From: Tamlana sp. 2_MG-2023
Lineage (GTDB): Bacteria; Bacteroidota; Bacteroidia; Flavobacteriales; Flavobacteriaceae
Direction of reading: 5' to 3'
Length of the DNA stretch: 64,000 nucleotides
Assembly (NCBI RefSeq): GCF_030548465.1
Contig: NZ_JAUOSF010000001.1
Coordinates: 124,001-188,000 of the forward strand
Every line of letters starts with the position of its first letter. Position 1 is the stretch's first letter. The translations under genes were made by a program, and so were the position numbers. This document shows, in pieces, positions 1,084 to 17,600 of the stretch. Under the pieces are notes generated by a model. That model made no database searches. It was given only the letters and a program-made list of their open reading frames with translations, and was not told the origin of the DNA.

Positions 1084-1917
1084 ATGGAAAAAATTATTGT
1101 TCCTGTAGATTTTTCTGAACATTCAGAGTATGCTTTACAAACAGCTGCAAAATTAGCTAAAAGGTATCAAGCAGAGCTGTTAGTGCTTCATATGTTGGAA
1201 ATGCCCGAAATGGTATTGACATCAACTGGTAAAAAGCAAAATGAAAAAGCTGGTTTTTTATTACGTTTAACAGAGCAAAAATTTGAGAAACTACTTGATA
1301 AAGATTTTTTATTTGGATTAAAAGTAACCCCAATTATTAAGCATTTTAAGATGTTTAGTGAAGTAAATGATGTCGCTATAGAAAATGGCGCCGACCTTAT
1401 TGTTATGGGAACCCAAGGCGCTAGTGGTTTCAAAGAAATGTTTATGGGATCTAATACTGAACGGGTTATTCGCTATGCGGAAATTCCTGTTTTAGCTGTT
1501 AAAAAAGAGGTCGTGGATGTTAGTTTTGAAGTGATTACTTTTGCGTGCGATTTCTCGGAAGAATGTATTCCAGCTTATTTAAAAGCGCTTGTTTTGTTCG
1601 AAAGCATGAATTCTAAAATGTATTTGGTTTATGTTAATTTGCCTAATGATAAATTTAAAAGCTCTGTAGAAATAGAAAAACGTGTTGCTGATTTTTTCAT
1701 AAAAGCCTGCGGTAATTTAAGACGAATGAAGGATGTTCATTATGTATCGCATTATAGTGTTGAGGAAGGTGTTTTAAATTTTTCCAATAAAATAGGAGCC
1801 GATTTGATTGCGCTTCCAACTCATGGTAAAAAAGGCTTAGCTCATTTTTTTGAAGGTAGCGTAGGTGAAGATGTTGCAAACCATGCGACACTACCAGTTA
1901 TGACATTTAAAATATAA
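1084..1917 (+). CDS. Universal stress protein with two Usp domains
   Basis: 277-residue tandem UspA-domain protein of the cytosol, about residues 1-140 and 148-277. The first domain ends with the ATP-binding pattern G-2X-G-9X-G(S/T), seen as MGTQGASG then MGSNTE. In the second domain the matching segment reads LPTHGKKG then EGSVGE, so the first glycine is a proline and nucleotide binding there is less sure. Such proteins are typical of stress and low-oxygen regulons; the neighbours hemN and cbb3 oxidase fit that, but no specific role can be read from sequence. A strong terminator follows. Confidence 0.9.
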   Translation: MEKIIVPVDFSEHSEYALQTAAKLAKRYQAELLVLHMLEMPEMVLTSTGKKQNEKAGFLLRLTEQKFEKLLDKDFLFGLKVTPIIKHFKMFSEVNDVAIENGADLIVMGTQGASGFKEMFMGSNTERVIRYAEIPVLAVKKEVVDVSFEVITFACDFSEECIPAYLKALVLFESMNSKMYLVYVNLPNDKFKSSVEIEKRVADFFIKACGNLRRMKDVHYVSHYSVEEGVLNFSNKIGADLIALPTHGKKGLAHFFEGSVGEDVANHATLPVMTFKI

Positions 1918-7134: not shown

Positions 7135-7157
7135 CAAATGTAATAGTAAAACTATTA
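7135..7157 (-). promoter_or_regulatory. Promoter and candidate TetR operator for the tetR-ABC-hlyD-tolC operon
   Basis: On the minus strand TACATTTG (7142-7135) matches the Bacteroidota -7 element TAnnTTTG, 18 bases before the tetR start. A perfect inverted repeat with 7-base arms, TAATAGT-aaa-ACTATTA (7141-7157), overlaps its upstream edge. This is where a TetR repressor would block initiation. The assignment of TetR to this site is inferred. Confidence 0.6.
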
Positions 7158-7253
7158 AGGGTGAAATCAACGCTATTATTTCTTTTTATAAGTAATCAAT
7201 AAAATCTATGTGGATGAAATTTTAAAATCAAAAATTGACTTTAAAAAAGGGTG

Positions 7254-7955
7254 TTAATGGCAATCAATTTCTGTTGAAATGGTATCGTAAACTGGAGCAG
7301 GAGAGAGGTATGGGATGCCTAAACCTAAACCGCGGACGATGAATAATGCACCAATAATAACTATAAATACAGGAATTAAATTTTGAATGCGTTGTCTGGC
7401 TGTGCCTTTTAAAAACTGACTAAAATAAATAGCAGTGGTCATTAAAGGAATGGTGCCTAAACCAAAAACGGCCATATATAAGCTTCCAGAAAGTGTATTT
7501 CCACTAGCAATAGCGGCAAAAACGGCCATATAAACTAATCCGCACGGTAAAAAACCATTTAAAAAACCAATCGTTAAAAAGGTATCGTAGGTCTTCTTCT
7601 TAAGGGCTTTTCCTAAAGCTGATTTCACTTTAGAAATGACTTTGTAAATAGGCTTAGAGAAATTGTATTTATTAAAGGTTTTCTGCGGAATTAAAACCAT
7701 AAGAATCATTAAAATTCCAATAATGATAGAGAGCTGCTGCTGAAAACCGAACAAGTACAATTGCTTCCCTATAAAACCAAAAACTAAACCAATGATACTA
7801 TAGGCGAGTAAGCGCCCTAAGTGGTAAATAAATATTTGCGATACTTTTTTTATTTGATTCGAGCGATCAACAGGAAGCATAAAGGCAATGGGGCCGCACA
7901 TACCCACACAATGAAAACTGCCTAATAAGCCTAATATGAATGCCGAAACGAGCAT
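7254..7955 (-). CDS. DsbD/UreH-like polytopic membrane protein of the cbb3 assembly cluster
   Basis: 233 residues with about six membrane helices. It carries GSFHCVGMCGPI near residue 12-23 and GFLNGFLPCGLVY in the second half, the paired Cys-containing loops of the DsbD_2 (UreH-like, often annotated TauE/SafE) family. It starts one base after the ccoH stop. In Bacteroidota this family commonly follows ccoH, and related proteins elsewhere handle copper, nickel or thiols. A role in copper or thiol delivery to the cbb3 oxidase is plausible but not shown. A sulfite exporter role is unlikely here. Confidence 0.75.
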   Translation of the reverse strand: MLVSAFILGLLGSFHCVGMCGPIAFMLPVDRSNQIKKVSQIFIYHLGRLLAYSIIGLVFGFIGKQLYLFGFQQQLSIIIGILMILMVLIPQKTFNKYNFSKPIYKVISKVKSALGKALKKKTYDTFLTIGFLNGFLPCGLVYMAVFAAIASGNTLSGSLYMAVFGLGTIPLMTTAIYFSQFLKGTARQRIQNLIPVFIVIIGALFIVRGLGLGIPYLSPAPVYDTISTEIDCH

Positions 7956-7956
7956 G

Positions 7957-8403
7957 TTAAAGGTGTATTTCTTCCTTAAACAAATATGGTTTTCCTTGGT
8001 ATTCCCATTCTATTCTAAGATCCCAACGGCCATCAAGTAAGCGTTTGTCTTTGATAAGTAATTCAGAATCAGTTAGTGAAATAGGGGTTTCAAAATCTAA
8101 TTTTTTACTTGATGGTCTGTATAAAATTACTTTGCCTTCAATGGTTTTGTAGTCTAGACCCTTTGGAAAAGTAATAACTAGACCGTCTTTGGTTTTCTTA
8201 TAGCTAACATTTTCTGAAAGCGTATTGGCATTGTTTAGTCTGTCAATATCATTTTGGTAGGCTAATTCTACACCATAATAATCTTCTGTTACCAACTCAT
8301 GATCGTATGCTTTATCCACATTCATGGTGATAATAAAATACATGATGAAGGAAATAAATCCCACAAACGCTAATACTATGCTTGTACCCCAGTTTATTTT
8401 CAT
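7957..8403 (-). CDS. ccoH: FixH/CcoH family cbb3 oxidase assembly protein
   Basis: 148 residues with a single N-terminal membrane helix (about 8-27) and a periplasmic domain of FixH type. It has the family features of a YY/AYQ segment after the helix (EDYYGVELAYQNDIDR) and a C-terminal immunoglobulin-like region (DGRWDLRIEWEYQGKPY). CcoH is needed for assembly or stability of cbb3 oxidase. In this window a toxin-antitoxin pair separates it from ccoG, so its transcription may depend on read-through or on a local promoter. Confidence 0.85.
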   Translation of the reverse strand: MKINWGTSIVLAFVGFISFIMYFIITMNVDKAYDHELVTEDYYGVELAYQNDIDRLNNANTLSENVSYKKTKDGLVITFPKGLDYKTIEGKVILYRPSSKKLDFETPISLTDSELLIKDKRLLDGRWDLRIEWEYQGKPYLFKEEIHL

Positions 8404-8451: not shown

Positions 8452-8787
8452 TTATTTTTTTAATGCAATAATTTCCTTCCTTAAGTTGGGAAGTTCTTTT
8501 AAAATGATTGTCCAAATTACCTCATCTGAAATACTATCATATTCATGAGCGATTCGGTTTCTTGTTCCAATTATTTTTTTTGCATTTTTAATAGTGATAC
8601 CTGAATGTTTATATTTTAAAATTCTGTTAATCGCTTCTCCTATTATTTCAATATTTCGTTCAATTGCTTTTTTTGTTTTTAAATCTTTTTGGTACTCAGA
8701 AAAATCAAGATTCTCAGGTAAGAAATCATAAATTTCATCAATCGACCTTTCGACATCCTCAAGCCATGAATTAATTCTATTGTCCAT
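8452..8787 (-). CDS. hepT: HepT-like HEPN ribonuclease toxin (DUF86)
   Basis: 111 residues, all-helical HEPN domain. The catalytic motif R-X4-H-X-Y is complete: Arg76, His81, Tyr83 in RNRIAHEY. In the studied Shewanella HepT-MntA system the toxin is an RNase, and MntA blocks it by transferring AMP groups to the tyrosine of this motif. The start overlaps the end of the upstream mntA-like gene by 11 bases, so the two are translationally coupled, with the antitoxin first. The pair sits between ccoG and ccoH, unrelated to respiration. Confidence 0.88.
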   Translation of the reverse strand: MDNRINSWLEDVERSIDEIYDFLPENLDFSEYQKDLKTKKAIERNIEIIGEAINRILKYKHSGITIKNAKKIIGTRNRIAHEYDSISDEVIWTIILKELPNLRKEIIALKK

Positions 8788-9079
8788 AAATCAGGATTTT
8801 TGTTTCATCAAGTTCCTTTTTGAAATATTTATTTTTTATGGCACGGTGTTCAATGAGGTCAATCTGACGTTTTAATAATTTTTCTAGTTTGTCTTTCAGT
8901 TCAAAGTATAAATTAGTGTATTCAAATGGGTCATTTTCATCAAAATCTACAACAAAATCATAATCTGATTCATCGTTAAAATCATCTCTAGTTACAGATC
9001 CAAAAGCAGCGAAGCTTCTAACTTTGTATTGTTCACAAAGTTTTTTAATCCGATATATATTTTTGTCATTTATATTCAT
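8777..9079 (-). CDS. mntA: MntA-like minimal nucleotidyltransferase antitoxin
   Basis: 100 residues. It has the nucleotidyltransferase pattern GSX10DXD exactly (Gly27-Ser28, Asp39, Asp41), and a third likely metal-binding Asp74 in RQIDLIE. Family members neutralise the HEPN toxin by AMPylation. The gene is followed by hepT with an 11-base overlap. On the minus strand TATTTTTG (9091-9084) fits a -7 element only five bases before the ATG, so the transcript may be nearly leaderless (inference). Confidence 0.88.
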   Translation of the reverse strand: MNINDKNIYRIKKLCEQYKVRSFAAFGSVTRDDFNDESDYDFVVDFDENDPFEYTNLYFELKDKLEKLLKRQIDLIEHRAIKNKYFKKELDETKILIYGQ

Positions 9080-9251: not shown

Positions 9252-10676
9252 CTATTTAAAACTTCGAGGCCCCAAAAAGTTAGCGGCAGTCGTTTCAATC
9301 AAGTTATCACCTTCGTAAACGCCAATTTCTATTTTATTTCGGTCACCTGATAATGCCGAATTATTAATTTCAACAAATAAAGTACCCTCTGCTAAGCCTT
9401 GACTTGGCACATGAAGTTTATCATTAGTCGCAACAATTTTAAGCATGCCTTTATGTGATAGTAATTTAAGCGTGACATCATCAAAATCGCGTGTGGTTTT
9501 ATTTACCAATTTATAAGTAAATACATTACTAATAATGTTGTTGTCTTTGTGCTCATAAAGTTGCCCCGGAAGTCTTAAAACATTCGCTTCAATATCGTTT
9601 CTTAAGAACAACATACCGGTTAATAATCCAGTAAGAATAACTAAAACGGCGGTGTAACCTTTTAAACGAGGTGTGAATTTAAACTTGGCTTTCTTTTCAA
9701 TTTCTTCCTCACTAGCGTAACGTATCAAACCTTTTGGTAAGTTGATGCTTTCCATAATATGGTCGCATTCATCAATACAGGCGGTACAGTTTACGCATTC
9801 TAATTGTGTCCCGTTACGAATGTCTATTCCTGTAGGACAAACATTTACACATTGCTTACAATCAATACAATCACCATGGCCAAGAGCCTCGCGGTCTTCG
9901 TTTTTCTTGTACTTTTTTCGTCCATTTTCGGCTTCACCTCTTTTGTGGTCGTAGGCAACAACAATCGATTTTGTATCTAGAAGCACGCCTTGTAGCCTTC
10001 CGTAAGGACAAGCGATTATACAGACTTGCTCTCTAAACCAGGCGAAAACAAAGTAAAAAACGGCTGTAAAAATTACGAGTGAAACTAGGGTGCTCAAATG
10101 ATTACTCGGGCCATCTTTTATGTATTGTATGAGTTTATCACTGCCTATCAAATAAGCAAGAAAGACGTTTGCTATTATGAATGAGATGAGTAAAAATATG
10201 AAGAGTTTTAGTCCTTTTTTTCTTATTTTTTCGGCGTTCCAAGGTTGTTTCGCTAAACGCATTTGTTTGCCGCGATCGCCTTCAATCCAATACTCAATAC
10301 GACGGAATACCATTTCCATGAAAATGGTTTGCGGACAAATCCATCCACAAAATATTCTACCAAAAGCTACAGTAAAAAGCGCAATAAAAATAACGCCAAT
10401 AAGCATGGAAATTACAAATAAATAAAAATCTTGAGGCCAGAAAGGGAATCCGAATATATTAAAACGACGTTCTAGTACATTGAACATTAAAAACTGATTG
10501 CCGTTTACTTTTATAAAAGGTGCAGTTAATAGGAATGCTAATAATAGGTAGCTAACGTATTTGCGGTATTTGTATAATCTTCCGCTAGGTTTTTTAGGAA
10601 ATACCCAGGCGCGCTTTCCGTCTTTGGTAACCGTACCAATAGAATCTCTAAATGTTTCGTTGTCCGGTGTTTCCAA
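9252..10676 (-). CDS. ccoG: CcoG/RdxA/FixG cytochrome oxidase accessory ferredoxin
   Basis: 474-residue membrane iron-sulfur protein. Helices lie at about 40-56, 83-104, 157-177 and 196-213. Cys110 and Cys114 sit in FCGWICPQT, a further pair in IIACPYGR, and the two 4Fe-4S ferredoxin motifs use Cys270, 273, 276, 280 and Cys294, 297, 300, 304. A last helix and a FixG immunoglobulin-like domain close the protein. CcoG-type proteins reduce copper during cbb3 oxidase assembly in studied bacteria. It is separated from ccoP by a 73-base spacer with a stem-loop. Confidence 0.95.
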   Translation of the reverse strand: METPDNETFRDSIGTVTKDGKRAWVFPKKPSGRLYKYRKYVSYLLLAFLLTAPFIKVNGNQFLMFNVLERRFNIFGFPFWPQDFYLFVISMLIGVIFIALFTVAFGRIFCGWICPQTIFMEMVFRRIEYWIEGDRGKQMRLAKQPWNAEKIRKKGLKLFIFLLISFIIANVFLAYLIGSDKLIQYIKDGPSNHLSTLVSLVIFTAVFYFVFAWFREQVCIIACPYGRLQGVLLDTKSIVVAYDHKRGEAENGRKKYKKNEDREALGHGDCIDCKQCVNVCPTGIDIRNGTQLECVNCTACIDECDHIMESINLPKGLIRYASEEEIEKKAKFKFTPRLKGYTAVLVILTGLLTGMLFLRNDIEANVLRLPGQLYEHKDNNIISNVFTYKLVNKTTRDFDDVTLKLLSHKGMLKIVATNDKLHVPSQGLAEGTLFVEINNSALSGDRNKIEIGVYEGDNLIETTAANFLGPRSFK

Positions 10677-11964: not shown

Positions 11965-14154
11965 TTATTGTGCGGTTTCCACTTTAATATCTGTTCCTAA
12001 TCGCTGTAAATAAGCAATTATTGCAACGATTTCTCTGTCTTTCATTTCAATGAAATCTTCACCGTTTGCAGCAGCTGCCTTTTTATCAGATTCATATGCA
12101 GCTACAAAATCAGGATCTGAATATAAATTCTTCTCAATTTGAGCACCTTGAGCATCCATACTTTGCTGTGCATTGGCGATTTCTTCATCTGTATAAGGAA
12201 CACCTAGGCTTACCATGGCTTCCATTTTAGCTTCAGTCATCGATTTGTCTAATCGGCTACTTTCTCCAGTAATTAACCATGGGTAACGCGGCATGATAGA
12301 ACCCGAAGAGGTACTTTGCGGATCGTACATGTGGTTAAAGTGCCAGTTGTCTGAATATTTCTGTCCCACACGGTGTAAGTCTGGCCCGGTACGTTTACTA
12401 CCCCATAAAAATGGATGATCGTAAACATATTCCCCAGCTTTAGAGTACTCGCCGTAACGTTCAACCTCATGTCTAAAAGGTCTAATCATTTGTGAGTGAC
12501 ATCCAACACAACCTTCTCTAATGTAAATATCACGACCTTCTAATTCTAAAGGTGTGTATGGTTTTACACTAGCAATGGTTGGAATATTCGATTTTACCAT
12601 AATGGTTGGTACAATCTGGATGACACCACCAATTAGTATAGCAACAGTTGCTAAAATGGTTAATTGAATTGGTCTACGCTCTAACCAGGTATGCCATCCT
12701 TCAGAAGCAGTACGTTTGTTTGTTACTTTTTCTAAAGCCGCAGCTTCAGCCAATTCGTCTTCAACAGGTGTTCCTTGTTTAACCGTGGCAATCACGTTAT
12801 AAACTAAAACGAACATTCCTATGATATATAAGGATCCTCCAATAGCACGCATCCAGTACATTGGCATGATTTCCGTTACGGTTTCTAGAAAGTTTCCGTA
12901 AACTAAAGTACCGTCTGGATTAAATTGTTGCCACATGGAGTATTGCGTAAATCCAGCAACATATAATGGTAAGGCGTACATGATAATCCCTAAAGTGCCT
13001 AACCAAAAGTGTAAATTAGCTAAGGCCAAAGAATATAATTTTGTTTTAAATAACCTCGGAATTAAATAGTAAATAATTCCAAAGGCCATAAATCCGTTCC
13101 ATGCTAAAGCACCAACGTGTACGTGAGCAATGATCCAATCGGTAAAGTGGGCAACAGCATTTACGTTTTTTAATGATAACATTGGACCTTCAAAAGTAGC
13201 CATACCATAACCTGTAATGGCAACAACTAAAAATTTTAAAACAGGATCGGTACGAACTTTATCCCAAGCACCACGAAGAGTTAGGAGTCCGTTTATCATA
13301 CCACCCCAAGAAGGCATTAATAACATGATAGAGAAGGCGACACCTAAATTTTGTGCCCATTCTGGTAAAGCGGTATATAATAAGTGGTGCGGTCCTGCCC
13401 AGATATAGATAAAGATTAACGACCAAAAGTGTACAATAGAAAGTCTGTAAGAATAAACAGGTCTGTTTGCTGCTTTGGGTACGAAGTAATACATCAATCC
13501 TAAAAACGGTGTGGTTAAAAAGAAGGCCACAGCGTTGTGTCCATACCACCATTGTACTAAGGCATCTTGAACTCCTGCGTATACCGAGTAACTTTTCATC
13601 GCACTCACTGGCAATTCTAAACTGTTGAAAATATGAAGTACCGCAACGGTAACAAAAGTGGCAATATAGAACCAGATAGCTACGTATAAATGACGTTGTC
13701 TACGTTTTAAAATCGTCCAAATCATATTAATACCAAAAACGACCCAAATTACGGCAATAGCGATATCAATAGGCCATTCTAATTCGGCGTATTCTTTTGA
13801 AGAGGTGTAACCTAAAGGAAGTGAAATAACGGCAGAAACTATTATAAGTTGCCAACCCCAGAAGTTAATATTACTTAGTAAATCACTAGCCATACGTGCT
13901 TTTAGCAAACGCTGCAGGGAATAATAAATACCCGCAAACATGGCATTACCTACGAAGGCAAAAATAACGGCGTTGGTGTGTAATGGTCTTAATCGCCCAA
14001 AACTAAGCCATGAAATGCCATCGGTTAGATTTGGGAATAAAAACAAAAAGGCAAGTAGTAAACCTACTGCCATGCCCACCACACCAAAAACTATTGTAGC
14101 GTAGATAAATTTGGTTACGATTTTATTATCGTAATGAAACTGTTGCATTTCCAT
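11965..14154 (-). CDS. ccoNO: Fused cbb3 cytochrome c oxidase subunits I and II (CcoN-CcoO)
   Basis: 729 residues. Residues 1-about 480 are CcoN, the catalytic haem-copper subunit with about 12 helices. Ligand histidines are seen in RPLHTN, WWYGHNAV, AGPHHLLY and AHFTDWIIAHVHVG. After a charged linker and one helix, residues about 500-729 are the mono-haem CcoO, with CVGCH at 549-553 followed by SQMIRPF. The enzyme reduces oxygen at low concentration and pumps protons. In Proteobacteria these are two genes; the fusion is known in Bacteroidota. It lies nine bases after ccoS. Confidence 0.96.
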   Translation of the reverse strand: MEMQQFHYDNKIVTKFIYATIVFGVVGMAVGLLLAFLFLFPNLTDGISWLSFGRLRPLHTNAVIFAFVGNAMFAGIYYSLQRLLKARMASDLLSNINFWGWQLIIVSAVISLPLGYTSSKEYAELEWPIDIAIAVIWVVFGINMIWTILKRRQRHLYVAIWFYIATFVTVAVLHIFNSLELPVSAMKSYSVYAGVQDALVQWWYGHNAVAFFLTTPFLGLMYYFVPKAANRPVYSYRLSIVHFWSLIFIYIWAGPHHLLYTALPEWAQNLGVAFSIMLLMPSWGGMINGLLTLRGAWDKVRTDPVLKFLVVAITGYGMATFEGPMLSLKNVNAVAHFTDWIIAHVHVGALAWNGFMAFGIIYYLIPRLFKTKLYSLALANLHFWLGTLGIIMYALPLYVAGFTQYSMWQQFNPDGTLVYGNFLETVTEIMPMYWMRAIGGSLYIIGMFVLVYNVIATVKQGTPVEDELAEAAALEKVTNKRTASEGWHTWLERRPIQLTILATVAILIGGVIQIVPTIMVKSNIPTIASVKPYTPLELEGRDIYIREGCVGCHSQMIRPFRHEVERYGEYSKAGEYVYDHPFLWGSKRTGPDLHRVGQKYSDNWHFNHMYDPQSTSSGSIMPRYPWLITGESSRLDKSMTEAKMEAMVSLGVPYTDEEIANAQQSMDAQGAQIEKNLYSDPDFVAAYESDKKAAAANGEDFIEMKDREIVAIIAYLQRLGTDIKVETAQ

Positions 14155-14163
14155 AGTTGAGAA

Positions 14164-14349
14164 TTAGTCTTTTTTGGTTAGAATTGATTTTTTGGGTTTT
14201 TCTTTTACGAGTTCGTCTTCAAACAACATACGAACAGAAGGGGTATAGCTATCGTCATATTGTCCGCTTCTTACTGCGACTACAAAGGCAATAAAGAAGC
14301 CAACGGCAACTATGATGCTGATTGCTAATAAGATGTATATCACACTCAT
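14164..14349 (-). CDS. ccoS: CcoS cbb3 oxidase maturation protein
   Basis: 61 residues: one membrane helix (about 3-26) followed by the family signature AVRSGQYDD and a short charged tail. CcoS is needed for haem and copper insertion into CcoN. It is the first gene of the ccoS-NO-Q-P unit and is preceded by a promoter with an Fnr-type operator. Confidence 0.92.
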   Translation of the reverse strand: MSVIYILLAISIIVAVGFFIAFVVAVRSGQYDDSYTPSVRMLFEDELVKEKPKKSILTKKD

Positions 14350-14378
14350 TTGGTAGTTCTGAATTGTTGTTTAGTGTT

Positions 14379-14422
14379 CAAATATATTTTGATACGGCAT
14401 TCTAAAATATGACATTTATCAT
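14379..14422 (-). promoter_or_regulatory. ccoS operon promoter with Fnr-type operator
   Basis: On the minus strand TATATTTG (14386-14379) is a perfect TAnnTTTG -7 element. ATGACATTTATCAT (14409-14422) has the TGA-N6-TCA half-sites of Crp/Fnr regulators and is centred 36.5 bases upstream of the last base of the -7 element, about -41 from a start near 14375. It overlaps the ccoI stop codon. No TTG -33 element is seen at the normal place, in line with activator dependence. The site matches the one upstream of ccoI at 15 of 16 bases. Confidence 0.75.
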
Positions 14423-16812
14423 GTTTTTTCAACCTTATCACGAATTTTTTTTCCTACGAAGTTAGTGCTAATTGTCGTAAATACAACAATGCTTATGGAA
14501 CTTAAAGGCATTAAAATGGCTGCAATTACTGGTGCTAATTGGCCTGTAACTGCAAAATAGAGTCCGATGCAGTTATAAATTAACGATAAAGCAAAGCTCC
14601 ATTTTATGATTTTAATAGCCGATTTTGAGGCTTTTATGAAGTTGTATAGCTGATTAAAGCTAGAAGCATCTAAAATAGCGTCGCAAGCCGGAGAAAAAAC
14701 ATTCACATTTTCAGAAATGGCAATACCTACATCACTTTGTGCTAAAGCACCAGCATCGTTTAGTCCGTCGCCTATCATTAAGACCTTGGCGCCTGAAGTT
14801 TGATGATGCTTAATGTATTCCAGTTTATCTTCTGGTTTCTGATTAAAAAGCAACTTCGTTTTTGCAGGAAGTAATTTGGTGAGGTTTTCTTGTTCTCCAG
14901 AATTGTCCCCTGAAAGAATAACTAAATCGTACTCCTTTTTTAACTGATTAAAAAGTTTAGAAAGGCCTTTGCGGTAGCGGTTATAAAAAGTAAATCGGCC
15001 TTTATATTGATTGTTTGTGCTTACATGTACCGCCGTGTTTAAGGTTTCTGTTTCTGAAGTATAACCAACAAAAGCGCCAGAACCAATTTTTATCGAATCT
15101 TGATTAGATTGCGCTTCAATACCTTTACCAATATGTTCTTCGTAGTTTTCAATGGTAACAATATCATGTTTGTTTAAAAGCGCATAAAGTGATCTGCTTA
15201 AGGGGTGATTAGAGTTTCTTAAGGTGCTTTTTAGAAAAGCCTCTTCATTTGTTGATAATTTTGAACCTTCATAGGCGATTGTGGTTTCTTTATTAGCCGT
15301 AATCGTTCCTGTTTTATCAAAAATAATGGTGTTTATTTGTGATAATTGCTCAATTACCGAAGCGTTTTTAGCATAGAATTTCTGCCTGCCAAAAATACGA
15401 AGCATATTTCCTAGAGTGAAAGGAGCTGCAAGTGCAATAGCACATGGGCAAGCAATAATAAGTACCGCAGTAAAAACATTCAAGGCTTTAGAGCTGTCGT
15501 TTAATAGCCAATATGCCGTAGCGACAAATGCAATGCTTAAAATAGCAATGGTAAATCGTTTACTAATAGTATTCGTTAAAGTTGTAAAAGCATCTTCTTT
15601 ATTTTTATTGAACACATCGTTGCTCCAAAGCTGGGTTAAATAACTTTGTTCAACACTTTTTAAAACATCAACTTCAATACTGCCTTCAACTTGTTTGCCA
15701 CCGGCGTATAATTTATCGCCAGATTGCTTTGAAACCGCTTCAGATTCACCGGTAACAAAACTATAATCAATGCGAGCTCTTCCGTTAATTAAAATACAAT
15801 CAACAGGAATTAATTCTTCGTTTCTAATTAGGAGTCGGTCACCTTTTTGAATGTCATAAACTTGAATGGATTCTTCGTCACCTTCAGCAGTTATTTTAGT
15901 GATTCCGATAGGGAAATAAGATTTATAATCGCGTTCAAAAGATAGAAAGCTGTAGGTTTTCTGCTGAAAAAATTTTCCGAGAAGAAGAAAAAATATTAAT
16001 CCCGCGAGGCTATCAAAAAATCCGGTTCCTAAATCTAGAACGATTTCGGCTGTACTTCTAATAAATAAAACGGCCGCACCCAAAGCTATAGGTACGTCAA
16101 TATTTAAAATACCTGATTTTAGACCTTTATATGCTGAAATAAAATAATCTTGAGCCGAATAAAAAATTACAGGCAGTGAAAAGGTAAACATGAGCCATCT
16201 AAACAATGGTTTAAACTGTTCGAGCCAAAACTCACCGACTTGAAAATATTCAGGAAATGATAGAAACATGATGTTTCCGAAGGCAAAACCTGCAACGCCT
16301 AATTTGTAAATAAGCGACCGGTCTACATTCTTTTTTCCAACCGAATAGTCATCTAGGCTGATAAAAGGTTCGTAACCAATGCTGCTAAGTAATTTGACTA
16401 ATGCTTTTATGGAAATACTTTCAGAATTATAAGTGACACGAACTGTTTTCTTTCCGAAATTAACGATGGAAGCCGTAATGCCAGGGTTCAATTTGTTTAA
16501 GTTTTCAAGAACCCAAATACAAGAACTGCAGTGAATATGTGGAATATAAAGTGTAACAATTTGCGTGTGCTCATCGTTAAACTCAAGCAGGGTTTCTACA
16601 ATTTTAGCATTGTCTAAAAAATTGTATTTGCCTTCAGTTTCTATAGGTGTAGCACCGGGAGCTTGTTGTAAATCGTAATATGAAGTCAAATCGTTTGCCG
16701 AAAAGATCTCGTATACCGTTTTACAACCGTTACAACAAAAAGATTTTTCATCATAAATGATTTCCGAAGCTGTTGAATCTAGCCCACAGTGGAAACATGT
16801 GTTATGTTCCAT
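14419..16812 (-). CDS. ccoI: CcoI/FixI-type copper-translocating P-type ATPase
   Basis: 797 residues from the ATG at 16812. N-terminal Cys cluster CFHC (6-9) and FCCNGC (26-30), HMA domain with CSSC (95-98), membrane helices, TGES (354-357), the copper-binding CPC (455-457), phosphorylated Asp499 in DKTGTIT and the hinge GDGLNDAGAL. It supplies copper for the CcoN binuclear centre. An upstream in-frame TTG (16845) was rejected because the predicted transcript starts near 16839. It is divergent from the Fnr-type gene, with a shared operator. Confidence 0.94.
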   Translation of the reverse strand: MEHNTCFHCGLDSTASEIIYDEKSFCCNGCKTVYEIFSANDLTSYYDLQQAPGATPIETEGKYNFLDNAKIVETLLEFNDEHTQIVTLYIPHIHCSSCIWVLENLNKLNPGITASIVNFGKKTVRVTYNSESISIKALVKLLSSIGYEPFISLDDYSVGKKNVDRSLIYKLGVAGFAFGNIMFLSFPEYFQVGEFWLEQFKPLFRWLMFTFSLPVIFYSAQDYFISAYKGLKSGILNIDVPIALGAAVLFIRSTAEIVLDLGTGFFDSLAGLIFFLLLGKFFQQKTYSFLSFERDYKSYFPIGITKITAEGDEESIQVYDIQKGDRLLIRNEELIPVDCILINGRARIDYSFVTGESEAVSKQSGDKLYAGGKQVEGSIEVDVLKSVEQSYLTQLWSNDVFNKNKEDAFTTLTNTISKRFTIAILSIAFVATAYWLLNDSSKALNVFTAVLIIACPCAIALAAPFTLGNMLRIFGRQKFYAKNASVIEQLSQINTIIFDKTGTITANKETTIAYEGSKLSTNEEAFLKSTLRNSNHPLSRSLYALLNKHDIVTIENYEEHIGKGIEAQSNQDSIKIGSGAFVGYTSETETLNTAVHVSTNNQYKGRFTFYNRYRKGLSKLFNQLKKEYDLVILSGDNSGEQENLTKLLPAKTKLLFNQKPEDKLEYIKHHQTSGAKVLMIGDGLNDAGALAQSDVGIAISENVNVFSPACDAILDASSFNQLYNFIKASKSAIKIIKWSFALSLIYNCIGLYFAVTGQLAPVIAAILMPLSSISIVVFTTISTNFVGKKIRDKVEKT

Positions 16813-16842
16813 AAAAATTTTGCTTGTTTTTTTGTCAATTAA

Positions 16843-16887
16843 CAAAAATGAAAAATGAACAAATCAATACACATGATAATTGTCATG
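16843..16887. promoter_or_regulatory. Divergent ccoI / fnr-type control region with operator
   Basis: CATGATAATTGTCATG (16872-16887) is a near-perfect palindrome with TGA-N6-TCA half-sites. On the minus strand CATTTTTG (16850-16843), one base off TAnnTTTG, ends 36.5 bases from the operator centre, the same distance as at ccoS; this predicts a ccoI transcript start near 16839. Toward the regulator gene the operator lies about 36-51 bases before its ATG, which would suit autoregulation. Confidence 0.72.
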
Positions 16888-16922
16888 ATTTATTTATTTT
16901 TACAAAATACAAAATAATAGGT

Positions 16923-17600
16923 ATGAGCAAGTGTGAACAATGTATAATTAAACAGTTTAATTCTTTAAAAGCTTTAACTAAGGATGAGTTGGTGCGTATT
17001 TCTTCGTGCAAAACATCGCATACCATTAAAAAAGGAGCAGTTATTTTTGAAGAAGGAGAGGTTTTAAACGGTGTTTATTGTATAAAAGATGGCATTTGTA
17101 AACTATCTAAGCTCAGTGAAAACGGCAAGGATCAAATTGTGAAAATGGTTGTAAAAGGGCAACTTTTAGGTCAGCGTTCTTTAATTAGTGAAGAGAGTTC
17201 AAACTTGCAAGCTACGGCCTTAAATGATATGGAAGTTTGCTTTATTCCTAAAAGTGAAATTTTTGCCGATTTGCAGAAGAATCCTAAGTTTTCATTCGAA
17301 GTGCTCAAAGATATGGCGCACGATTTAAGAGACTCAGACGATATTATTGTGAACATGGCGCAGAAATCAGTACGTCAGCGCTTGGCGGAAACCTTAATAT
17401 ATATTCATGAAAACTTCGGAACCAATCCTGATGATACTTTAAGCGTGCTTTTATCTCGTGAAGATTATGCTGGTATCGTAGGAACCGCAACCGAATCTGC
17501 TATTCGTGTGCTTTCTCAGTTTAAAAAAGAAGGTTTAATTGAAGCCGTAGGGAAGTATATAAAAATTATTGACTTCGCAGGTCTGGAGCGTGTGGAGTAA
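16923..17600 (+). CDS. Fnr-type Crp/Fnr family regulator
   Basis: 225 residues from the ATG at 16923; frames starting further upstream would cross the operator. Cysteines at 4 and 7 (CEQC) plus 29, 53 and 59 could hold an Fe-S cluster as in Fnr. A cyclic-nucleotide-like barrel (about 35-120) is followed by a dimer helix and the DNA-binding motif at about 178-204. The recognition helix keeps Glu191 and Arg195 (TESAIRVL), the residues that read TGA in Fnr and Crp sites. Divergent from ccoI; the likely activator of the cbb3 genes (inference). Confidence 0.88.
   Translation: MSKCEQCIIKQFNSLKALTKDELVRISSCKTSHTIKKGAVIFEEGEVLNGVYCIKDGICKLSKLSENGKDQIVKMVVKGQLLGQRSLISEESSNLQATALNDMEVCFIPKSEIFADLQKNPKFSFEVLKDMAHDLRDSDDIIVNMAQKSVRQRLAETLIYIHENFGTNPDDTLSVLLSREDYAGIVGTATESAIRVLSQFKKEGLIEAVGKYIKIIDFAGLERVE

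Follow-up and report, generated by a model that had tools for sequence, protein, structure and literature searches.

Two palindromic sites in the window (the whole 64,000-nucleotide stretch of DNA analysed here) are very probably operators of an Fnr-type activator, which is most likely encoded by the gene at 16923-17600. From these sites, the activator would switch on the genes of the cbb3 oxidase and further targets in a class II manner at low oxygen, and would also repress its own gene. The sites, their spacing, their conservation, the content of the regulon and the recognition residues of the protein were read directly from sequences, and from them we infer that the protein binds DNA, responds to oxygen by way of an Fe-S cluster, activates these promoters and represses its own.

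Two operators at the cco locus

The sites are located upstream of ccoS and ccoI, the latter being divergent from the gene of the regulator (fnr). The features of the locus are:

11965..14154, minus strand: ccoN-ccoO, fused cbb3 oxidase subunit I/II, downstream of ccoS (PF00115, PF02433, NF011053)
14164..14349, minus strand: ccoS (FixS, cbb3 maturation; PF03597, 2.6e-19)
14379..14386, minus strand (read from 14386 to 14379): -7 box of the ccoS promoter, TATATTTG
14409..14422, centre 14415.5, minus strand: operator S, ATGATAAATGTCAT, predicted class II activator site of the ccoS promoter (-41.5)
14419..16812, minus strand: ccoI, copper P-type ATPase for cbb3 assembly (PF00122, PF00702, PF12156, PF00403)
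16843..16850, minus strand (read from 16850 to 16843): -7 box of the ccoI promoter, without T at -12, CATTTTTG
16873..16886, centre 16879.5, minus strand: operator I, ATGACAATTATCAT, predicted at -41.5 for ccoI and at about -27.5 for fnr
16895..16902, plus strand: predicted -7 box of fnr, TATTTTTA, 22.5 bases from the centre of operator I
16923..17600, plus strand: gene of the Fnr-type regulator, 225 aa (PF00027, 6.9e-18; PF13545, 3.3e-15)

For ccoI, the ATG at 16812 was preferred as start codon over a TTG at 16845.

The consensus of both operators is the 14-base palindrome ATGAYAnnTRTCAT. The first-pass annotation of this DNA had described the sites as a pair of 16-mers with TGA-N6-TCA half-sites. 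The half-sites were seen in both operators, and both 16-mers exist, the second at 16871-16886 as reported; the first, however, lies at 14409-14424 and had been placed two bases too low (14407-14422). Recomputation agreed with the two -7 boxes and with the distance proposed for them, as the operator centre is 36.5 bases from the last G of the box at both promoters (14415.5 to 14379; 16879.5 to 16843).

Mapping of start sites in Flavobacterium psychrophilum located the sigma-A box, TAnnTTTG, at -12 to -5 and yielded a median leader of 24 nt (PMC9723704). Provided that the box occupies the same positions here, a distance of 36.5 bases from its end sets the operator centre at -41.5, the class II position. 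The transcripts of ccoS and ccoI are predicted to start near 14374 and 16838, respectively, giving leader lengths close to 25 and 26 nt. Both the class II placement (-41) and the assignment to an Fnr-type protein, already put forward in the first-pass annotation, appear supported by the conserved spacing, by the occurrence of the sites in step with a regulator that has these recognition residues, and by the Fnr-like regulon.

The stop codon of ccoI, TGA at 14421-14419, doubles as the TGA half-site of operator S. This overlap recurred in only a few relatives and was rejected as a general functional design, since the distance from site to stop varies among loci.

Conservation of the spacing

Within the window, nine matches to the 16-mer were found at up to three mismatches, compared to 3.5 expected, and this number was reached in 2 of 100 shuffles; only two of the nine are exact copies. 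The coincidence of spacing at the two sites arose in 0.08% of base shuffles in which the two flanks were shuffled. Across the 4.0-Mb genome, ATGAYAnnTRTCAT occurred exactly at nine sites, all of which had a box (at least five of six letters) at exactly 36.5 bases in one orientation, and any other offset was shared by two of the nine at most. With the offset fixed in advance, such an outcome has a chance of about 1e-15, and allowing for 60 offsets raises this to 7e-14. The earlier suspicion that the matched spacing was improbable by chance was thus borne out by both the shuffles and the genome-wide counts.

A variable-gap search (gaps 10 to 34) was performed in 150 Flavobacteriaceae genomes and gave 150 pairs of site and box among the matches listed. 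The fixed spacing of class II type, present at all nine sites of the window's own genome, was also that of 126 of these 150 pairs among the matches listed (gap 22, equal to 36.5 bases); gap 23 accounted for seven and gap 21 for four, the rest were scattered, and the reversed-pattern control was near zero. A composite pattern of site plus box was about 18-fold above its reversed control in the 150 genomes. In a class-wide sample, 36.5 was the commonest spacing outside the Flavobacteriaceae too (among the matches listed).

When 80 named loci around Fnr orthologs were read, the ccoI operator was present at 36.5 in nearly all of them and the ccoS operator, with TAnnTTTG boxes, in most. Close relatives, in which loss of the sites had been proposed as a check, kept those of ccoS and ccoI at the identical spacing.

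The Fnr-type regulator

The 225-aa protein consists of a cNMP-binding-like domain and HTH_Crp, as FNR-type regulators do. Its best relatives among solved structures (phmmer) were FNR structures, ranked behind 2gau, a Crp/Fnr-family protein. It scored 92 bits against the NCBIfam Fnr model NF008365, whose cut-off is 228, and is an FNR-like protein outside this proteobacterial model.

In the recognition helix, E191, I194 and R195 were invariant across 81 homologs. E191 and R195 correspond to E209 and R213 of E. coli FNR, in line with the initial remark that the Glu and Arg that read TGA are kept in the adjacent protein, and Ile stands at the position of Ser212. Judging by known FNR contacts, this Ile would fit an outer base other than T, that is, ATGA rather than TTGA.

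The [4Fe-4S] cluster of E. coli FNR is bound by C20, C23, C29 and C122. C4, C7 and C106 of the 225-aa protein align with C20, C23 and C122 and were invariant in the 81 homologs, as was C53, and its own C29 and C59 were present in 80 of the 81. The position of E. coli FNR C29, the canonical third Fe-S cysteine, is not Cys.

A second Fnr-type protein, with CxxC-x4-C and an E..IR recognition helix, is encoded in this genome at C1:292666-293310 (L016). This paralog adjoins putative anaerobic-respiration genes, where one membrane subunit was read as NrfD-like, with a putative c-type heme lipoprotein alongside. In its vicinity, a porin-like gene (L005) has an exact operator, and a MoeA-like gene (L013) has a near-site at a spacing of 37.5.

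Predicted regulon

The composite pattern TGAYAnnnRTCA-N24-AnnTTTR was found at 15 places in the genome, compared to two for the reversed control, and 13 of the 15 lie 19-92 nt ahead of an ORF. Based on Pfam and sequence, the genes behind these sites include ccoS-ccoNO, ccoI, hemN, hemE and the gene of a PFL-like (pyruvate formate-lyase-like) protein, together with those of a thioredoxin-like protein, a permease and a porin-like protein. An AAA_26 protein behind a further site was tentatively read as phosphate acetyltransferase, and transporter genes beside the porin-like protein as nitrate uptake. With cbb3, hemN, hemE and the PFL-like gene, the predicted regulon is classically Fnr-like.

At C45:62186-63834, two near-identical operators (L008, L009) about 1.6 kb apart have CAACTTTG boxes at 36.5 which, like the ccoI box, are without T at -12. 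One of these operators is upstream of a lipoprotein read as FKBP-like.

The ccoI -7 box and the divergent fnr promoter

In 90 of 92 loci of relatives, T was absent from position -12 of the ccoI box, and the two exceptions with T, TAAAATTT and TTCCTTTG, were poor boxes as well. Along the ccoI protein tree, the base at -12 changed at least 29 times, compared to 35 times at -10 and 26 times at -9, both free positions. The changes at -12 were almost all among A, C and G, whereas T is frequent at -10 and -9, a pattern that resembles selection against T at -12. The simplest reason would be a promoter unable to fire without its activator, suggesting that activator dependence as such may be under selection.

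On the fnr side of operator I, transcription is predicted to start near 16907. Of 76 homologous loci, 68 had a TAnnTTT[GA] box on this side at a distance of 22.5-24.5 bases from the centre of the operator (22.5 in 46 of them). Given this conserved box and the lack of one at 36.5 on the same side, operator I was rejected as a symmetric class II site for fnr. At about -27.5 it would lie over the promoter core of fnr, where repression is expected, and this position suggests that Fnr probably activates ccoI and limits its own gene through a single shared operator.

Apparent exchange of regulators in the Flavobacteriaceae

Thirty of the 150 Flavobacteriaceae genomes had no close match to the window's Fnr but did encode a receiver-Crp fusion, in which a response-regulator receiver is joined to a cNMP domain and to an HTH_Crp whose helix reads ATESLIR. 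Where examined, this fusion usually adjoins a FixL-like PAS kinase, and the PAS of one such kinase had FixL as its best PDB match (5.1e-18). When 21 distinct kinases were aligned over the PAS region (that of L169, aligned twice, was counted once, and some came from genomes with both regulators), the proximal heme His of FixL was found in 20 and the distal Arg in 19 of the 21. With these residues in place, the kinases beside the fusion are putative FixL-type oxygen sensors.

Most of the cco loci read in fusion-only genomes keep the ccoI and ccoS operators at 36.5, and a few showed none at the thresholds used. CTGA is often the outer half-site in these loci, and the ccoI box is again without T at -12. 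A change of the outer operator base from A to C by co-evolution with the regulator swap was left unsupported, as there were too few independent pairs.

The ccoS box of fusion-only genomes (L164-L206) was often TAnnTTTA, with a final A instead of G. In one of these genomes (L169), a universal stress protein gene (7143-7994) stands divergent from ccoI in place of fnr, and more universal stress protein genes adjoin the pair of kinase and receiver-Crp fusion.

The mean number of composite sites per genome was 9.2 with Fnr only, 10.3 with the fusion only, 17.5 with both and 1.4 (median 0) with neither, the high values in this last group including those of two genomes that are 82% and 73% complete. 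All 55 Fnr-only genomes had at least one composite site, and 11 of the 55 were without an exact site plus exact box.

The regulator label switched five times on the ccoI tree, at least three of them on well-supported branches; the number of exchanges is unsure, as the tree was built quickly and contains some long branches, sampling differed between the two sets and absence was defined by search thresholds. Since the operators and their spacing were kept in most Fnr-less fusion genomes, the operator appears to outlive its reader. On balance, we lean towards the view that, in the Flavobacteriaceae, the low-oxygen operator at -41.5, including the T-less ccoI box, is more durable than its regulator. 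Fe-S-type Fnr and a FixL-like kinase with the receiver-Crp fusion, a single protein in the roles of FixJ and FixK, would have changed places several times at operators that stayed the same, and the number of sites is roughly doubled in genomes with both.

Proposed mechanism and alternative readings

At low oxygen, an Fnr dimer would bind ATGAYA-nn-TRTCAT centred at -41.5 and, from this class II position, contact sigma-A RNA polymerase wherever the promoter has a -7 box of the TAnnTTTG type. In this way, ccoI and ccoS-ccoNO would be switched on along with roughly a dozen further promoters, those of hemN, hemE and the PFL-like gene among them. The operator between ccoI and fnr would have two roles, activation of ccoI and, probably, repression of fnr, and the ccoI promoter would be held weak through the avoidance of T at -12.

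It is unlikely, in our view, that the main reader of the sites is another Crp/Fnr protein, either the paralog at C1:292666-293310 or, in other genera, the fusion driven by a FixL-like kinase, with the adjacent Fnr being one of several. The paralog keeps E..IR and could share sites, and the 30 Fnr-less genomes with the ATESLIR fusion have their mean of 10.3 composite sites, with the sites kept at 36.5 in most of the cco loci read. However, no receiver-Crp fusion was found in the window's genome at E<=1e-60, and genomes in which the ortholog of the window's Fnr was the single Fnr-type match, without a fusion, had a mean of 8.5 composite sites, showing that an Fnr of the window's type alone is enough to accompany the sites.

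A cAMP- or nutrient-responsive regulator of Crp type, instead of an oxygen-responsive Fnr, is more improbable still. The -41.5 geometry is common to Crp and Fnr and the regulator does contain a cNMP-binding-type domain, but the targets in this genome are cbb3, hemN, hemE and the PFL-like gene, and the N-terminal CxxC and the Cys at the position of FNR C122 are those of the 81 homologs without exception. Further, the kinases of the fusion lineage carry a FixL-like PAS, and the genome's two remaining strong Crp-family proteins have R..NR or R..SR helices, not E..IR.

Finally, a chance origin of the identical spacing in AT-rich intergenic DNA has next to no probability: -7-like octamers (five of six letters) do occur at about 1.2% of positions and degenerate matches to the 16-mer are common, but the genome-wide counts, with nine of nine exact sites, 126 of 150 family pairs among the matches listed and a reversed control near zero, rule it out.

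Relation to known systems

Fnr/FixK-type control of cbb3, as proposed here for the adjacent Fnr, is a system of a known kind. The regulator resembles E. coli FNR in its Crp/Fnr fold with HTH_Crp, its N-terminal CxxC, its Cys at the C122 position and the E and R of its recognition helix, and E. coli class II FNR promoters share the palindromic TGA-N6-TCA operator at -41.5, here predicted from sequence. It differs in the operator (ATGA vs. TTGA), in Ile at the Ser212 position, and in having an invariant C53 and no Cys at the C29 position, and the promoters have a TAnnTTTG -7 box where those of E. coli have TATAAT.

Similarly, in the FixL/FixJ/FixK and FnrL systems of alphaproteobacteria (fixNOQP), cbb3 is under oxygen control by Crp/Fnr-type activators, and the kinases beside the flavobacterial fusion mostly keep the heme His and Arg of FixL. 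In contrast, the functions of FixJ and FixK would be joined in one flavobacterial protein, and the window's genome has Fnr-type proteins only.

To our knowledge, oxygen regulation in Bacteroidota is poorly described. HcpR/DNR regulons of Bacteroides and others were likewise reconstructed by comparative genomics, with Fnr-like regulators and palindromic operators, but the site predicted for HcpR2 of Bacteroides, at hcp genes, is GTAACnnnnGTTAC (PMC1274295), as opposed to ATGAYAnnTRTCAT at cco genes here. The sigma-A promoters of F. psychrophilum share the TAnnTTTG box, and oxygen limitation induces cbb3 and heme genes in this species; the main text of that study gives no description of an Fnr operator (PMC9723704).

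No account of a flavobacterial Fnr operator consensus, its geometry, a FixL/receiver-Crp system or regulator exchange was found among the open-access papers searched. Nor did these papers describe the system in its present form, namely the consensus, the predicted -41.5 geometry on Bacteroidota promoters, the operator shared by ccoI and fnr, the conserved defective ccoI box and the putative regulator exchange. These results provide an operator consensus and its constant distance from the -7 box, an unusual element of Bacteroidota. From site plus box, a regulon can be predicted in any flavobacterial genome. Putative oxygen sensors of two distinct types acting on the same promoters would also make a testable case.

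Other features of the locus

A HepT-like gene (PF01934) and a nucleotidyltransferase gene (PF18765/PF01909) at 8452-9079 on the minus strand form a HepT/MntA-type toxin-antitoxin module, placed within the string of cco genes between ccoG (9252-10676) and ccoH (7957-8403). The Usp gene of the window (1084-1917) comes after hemN.
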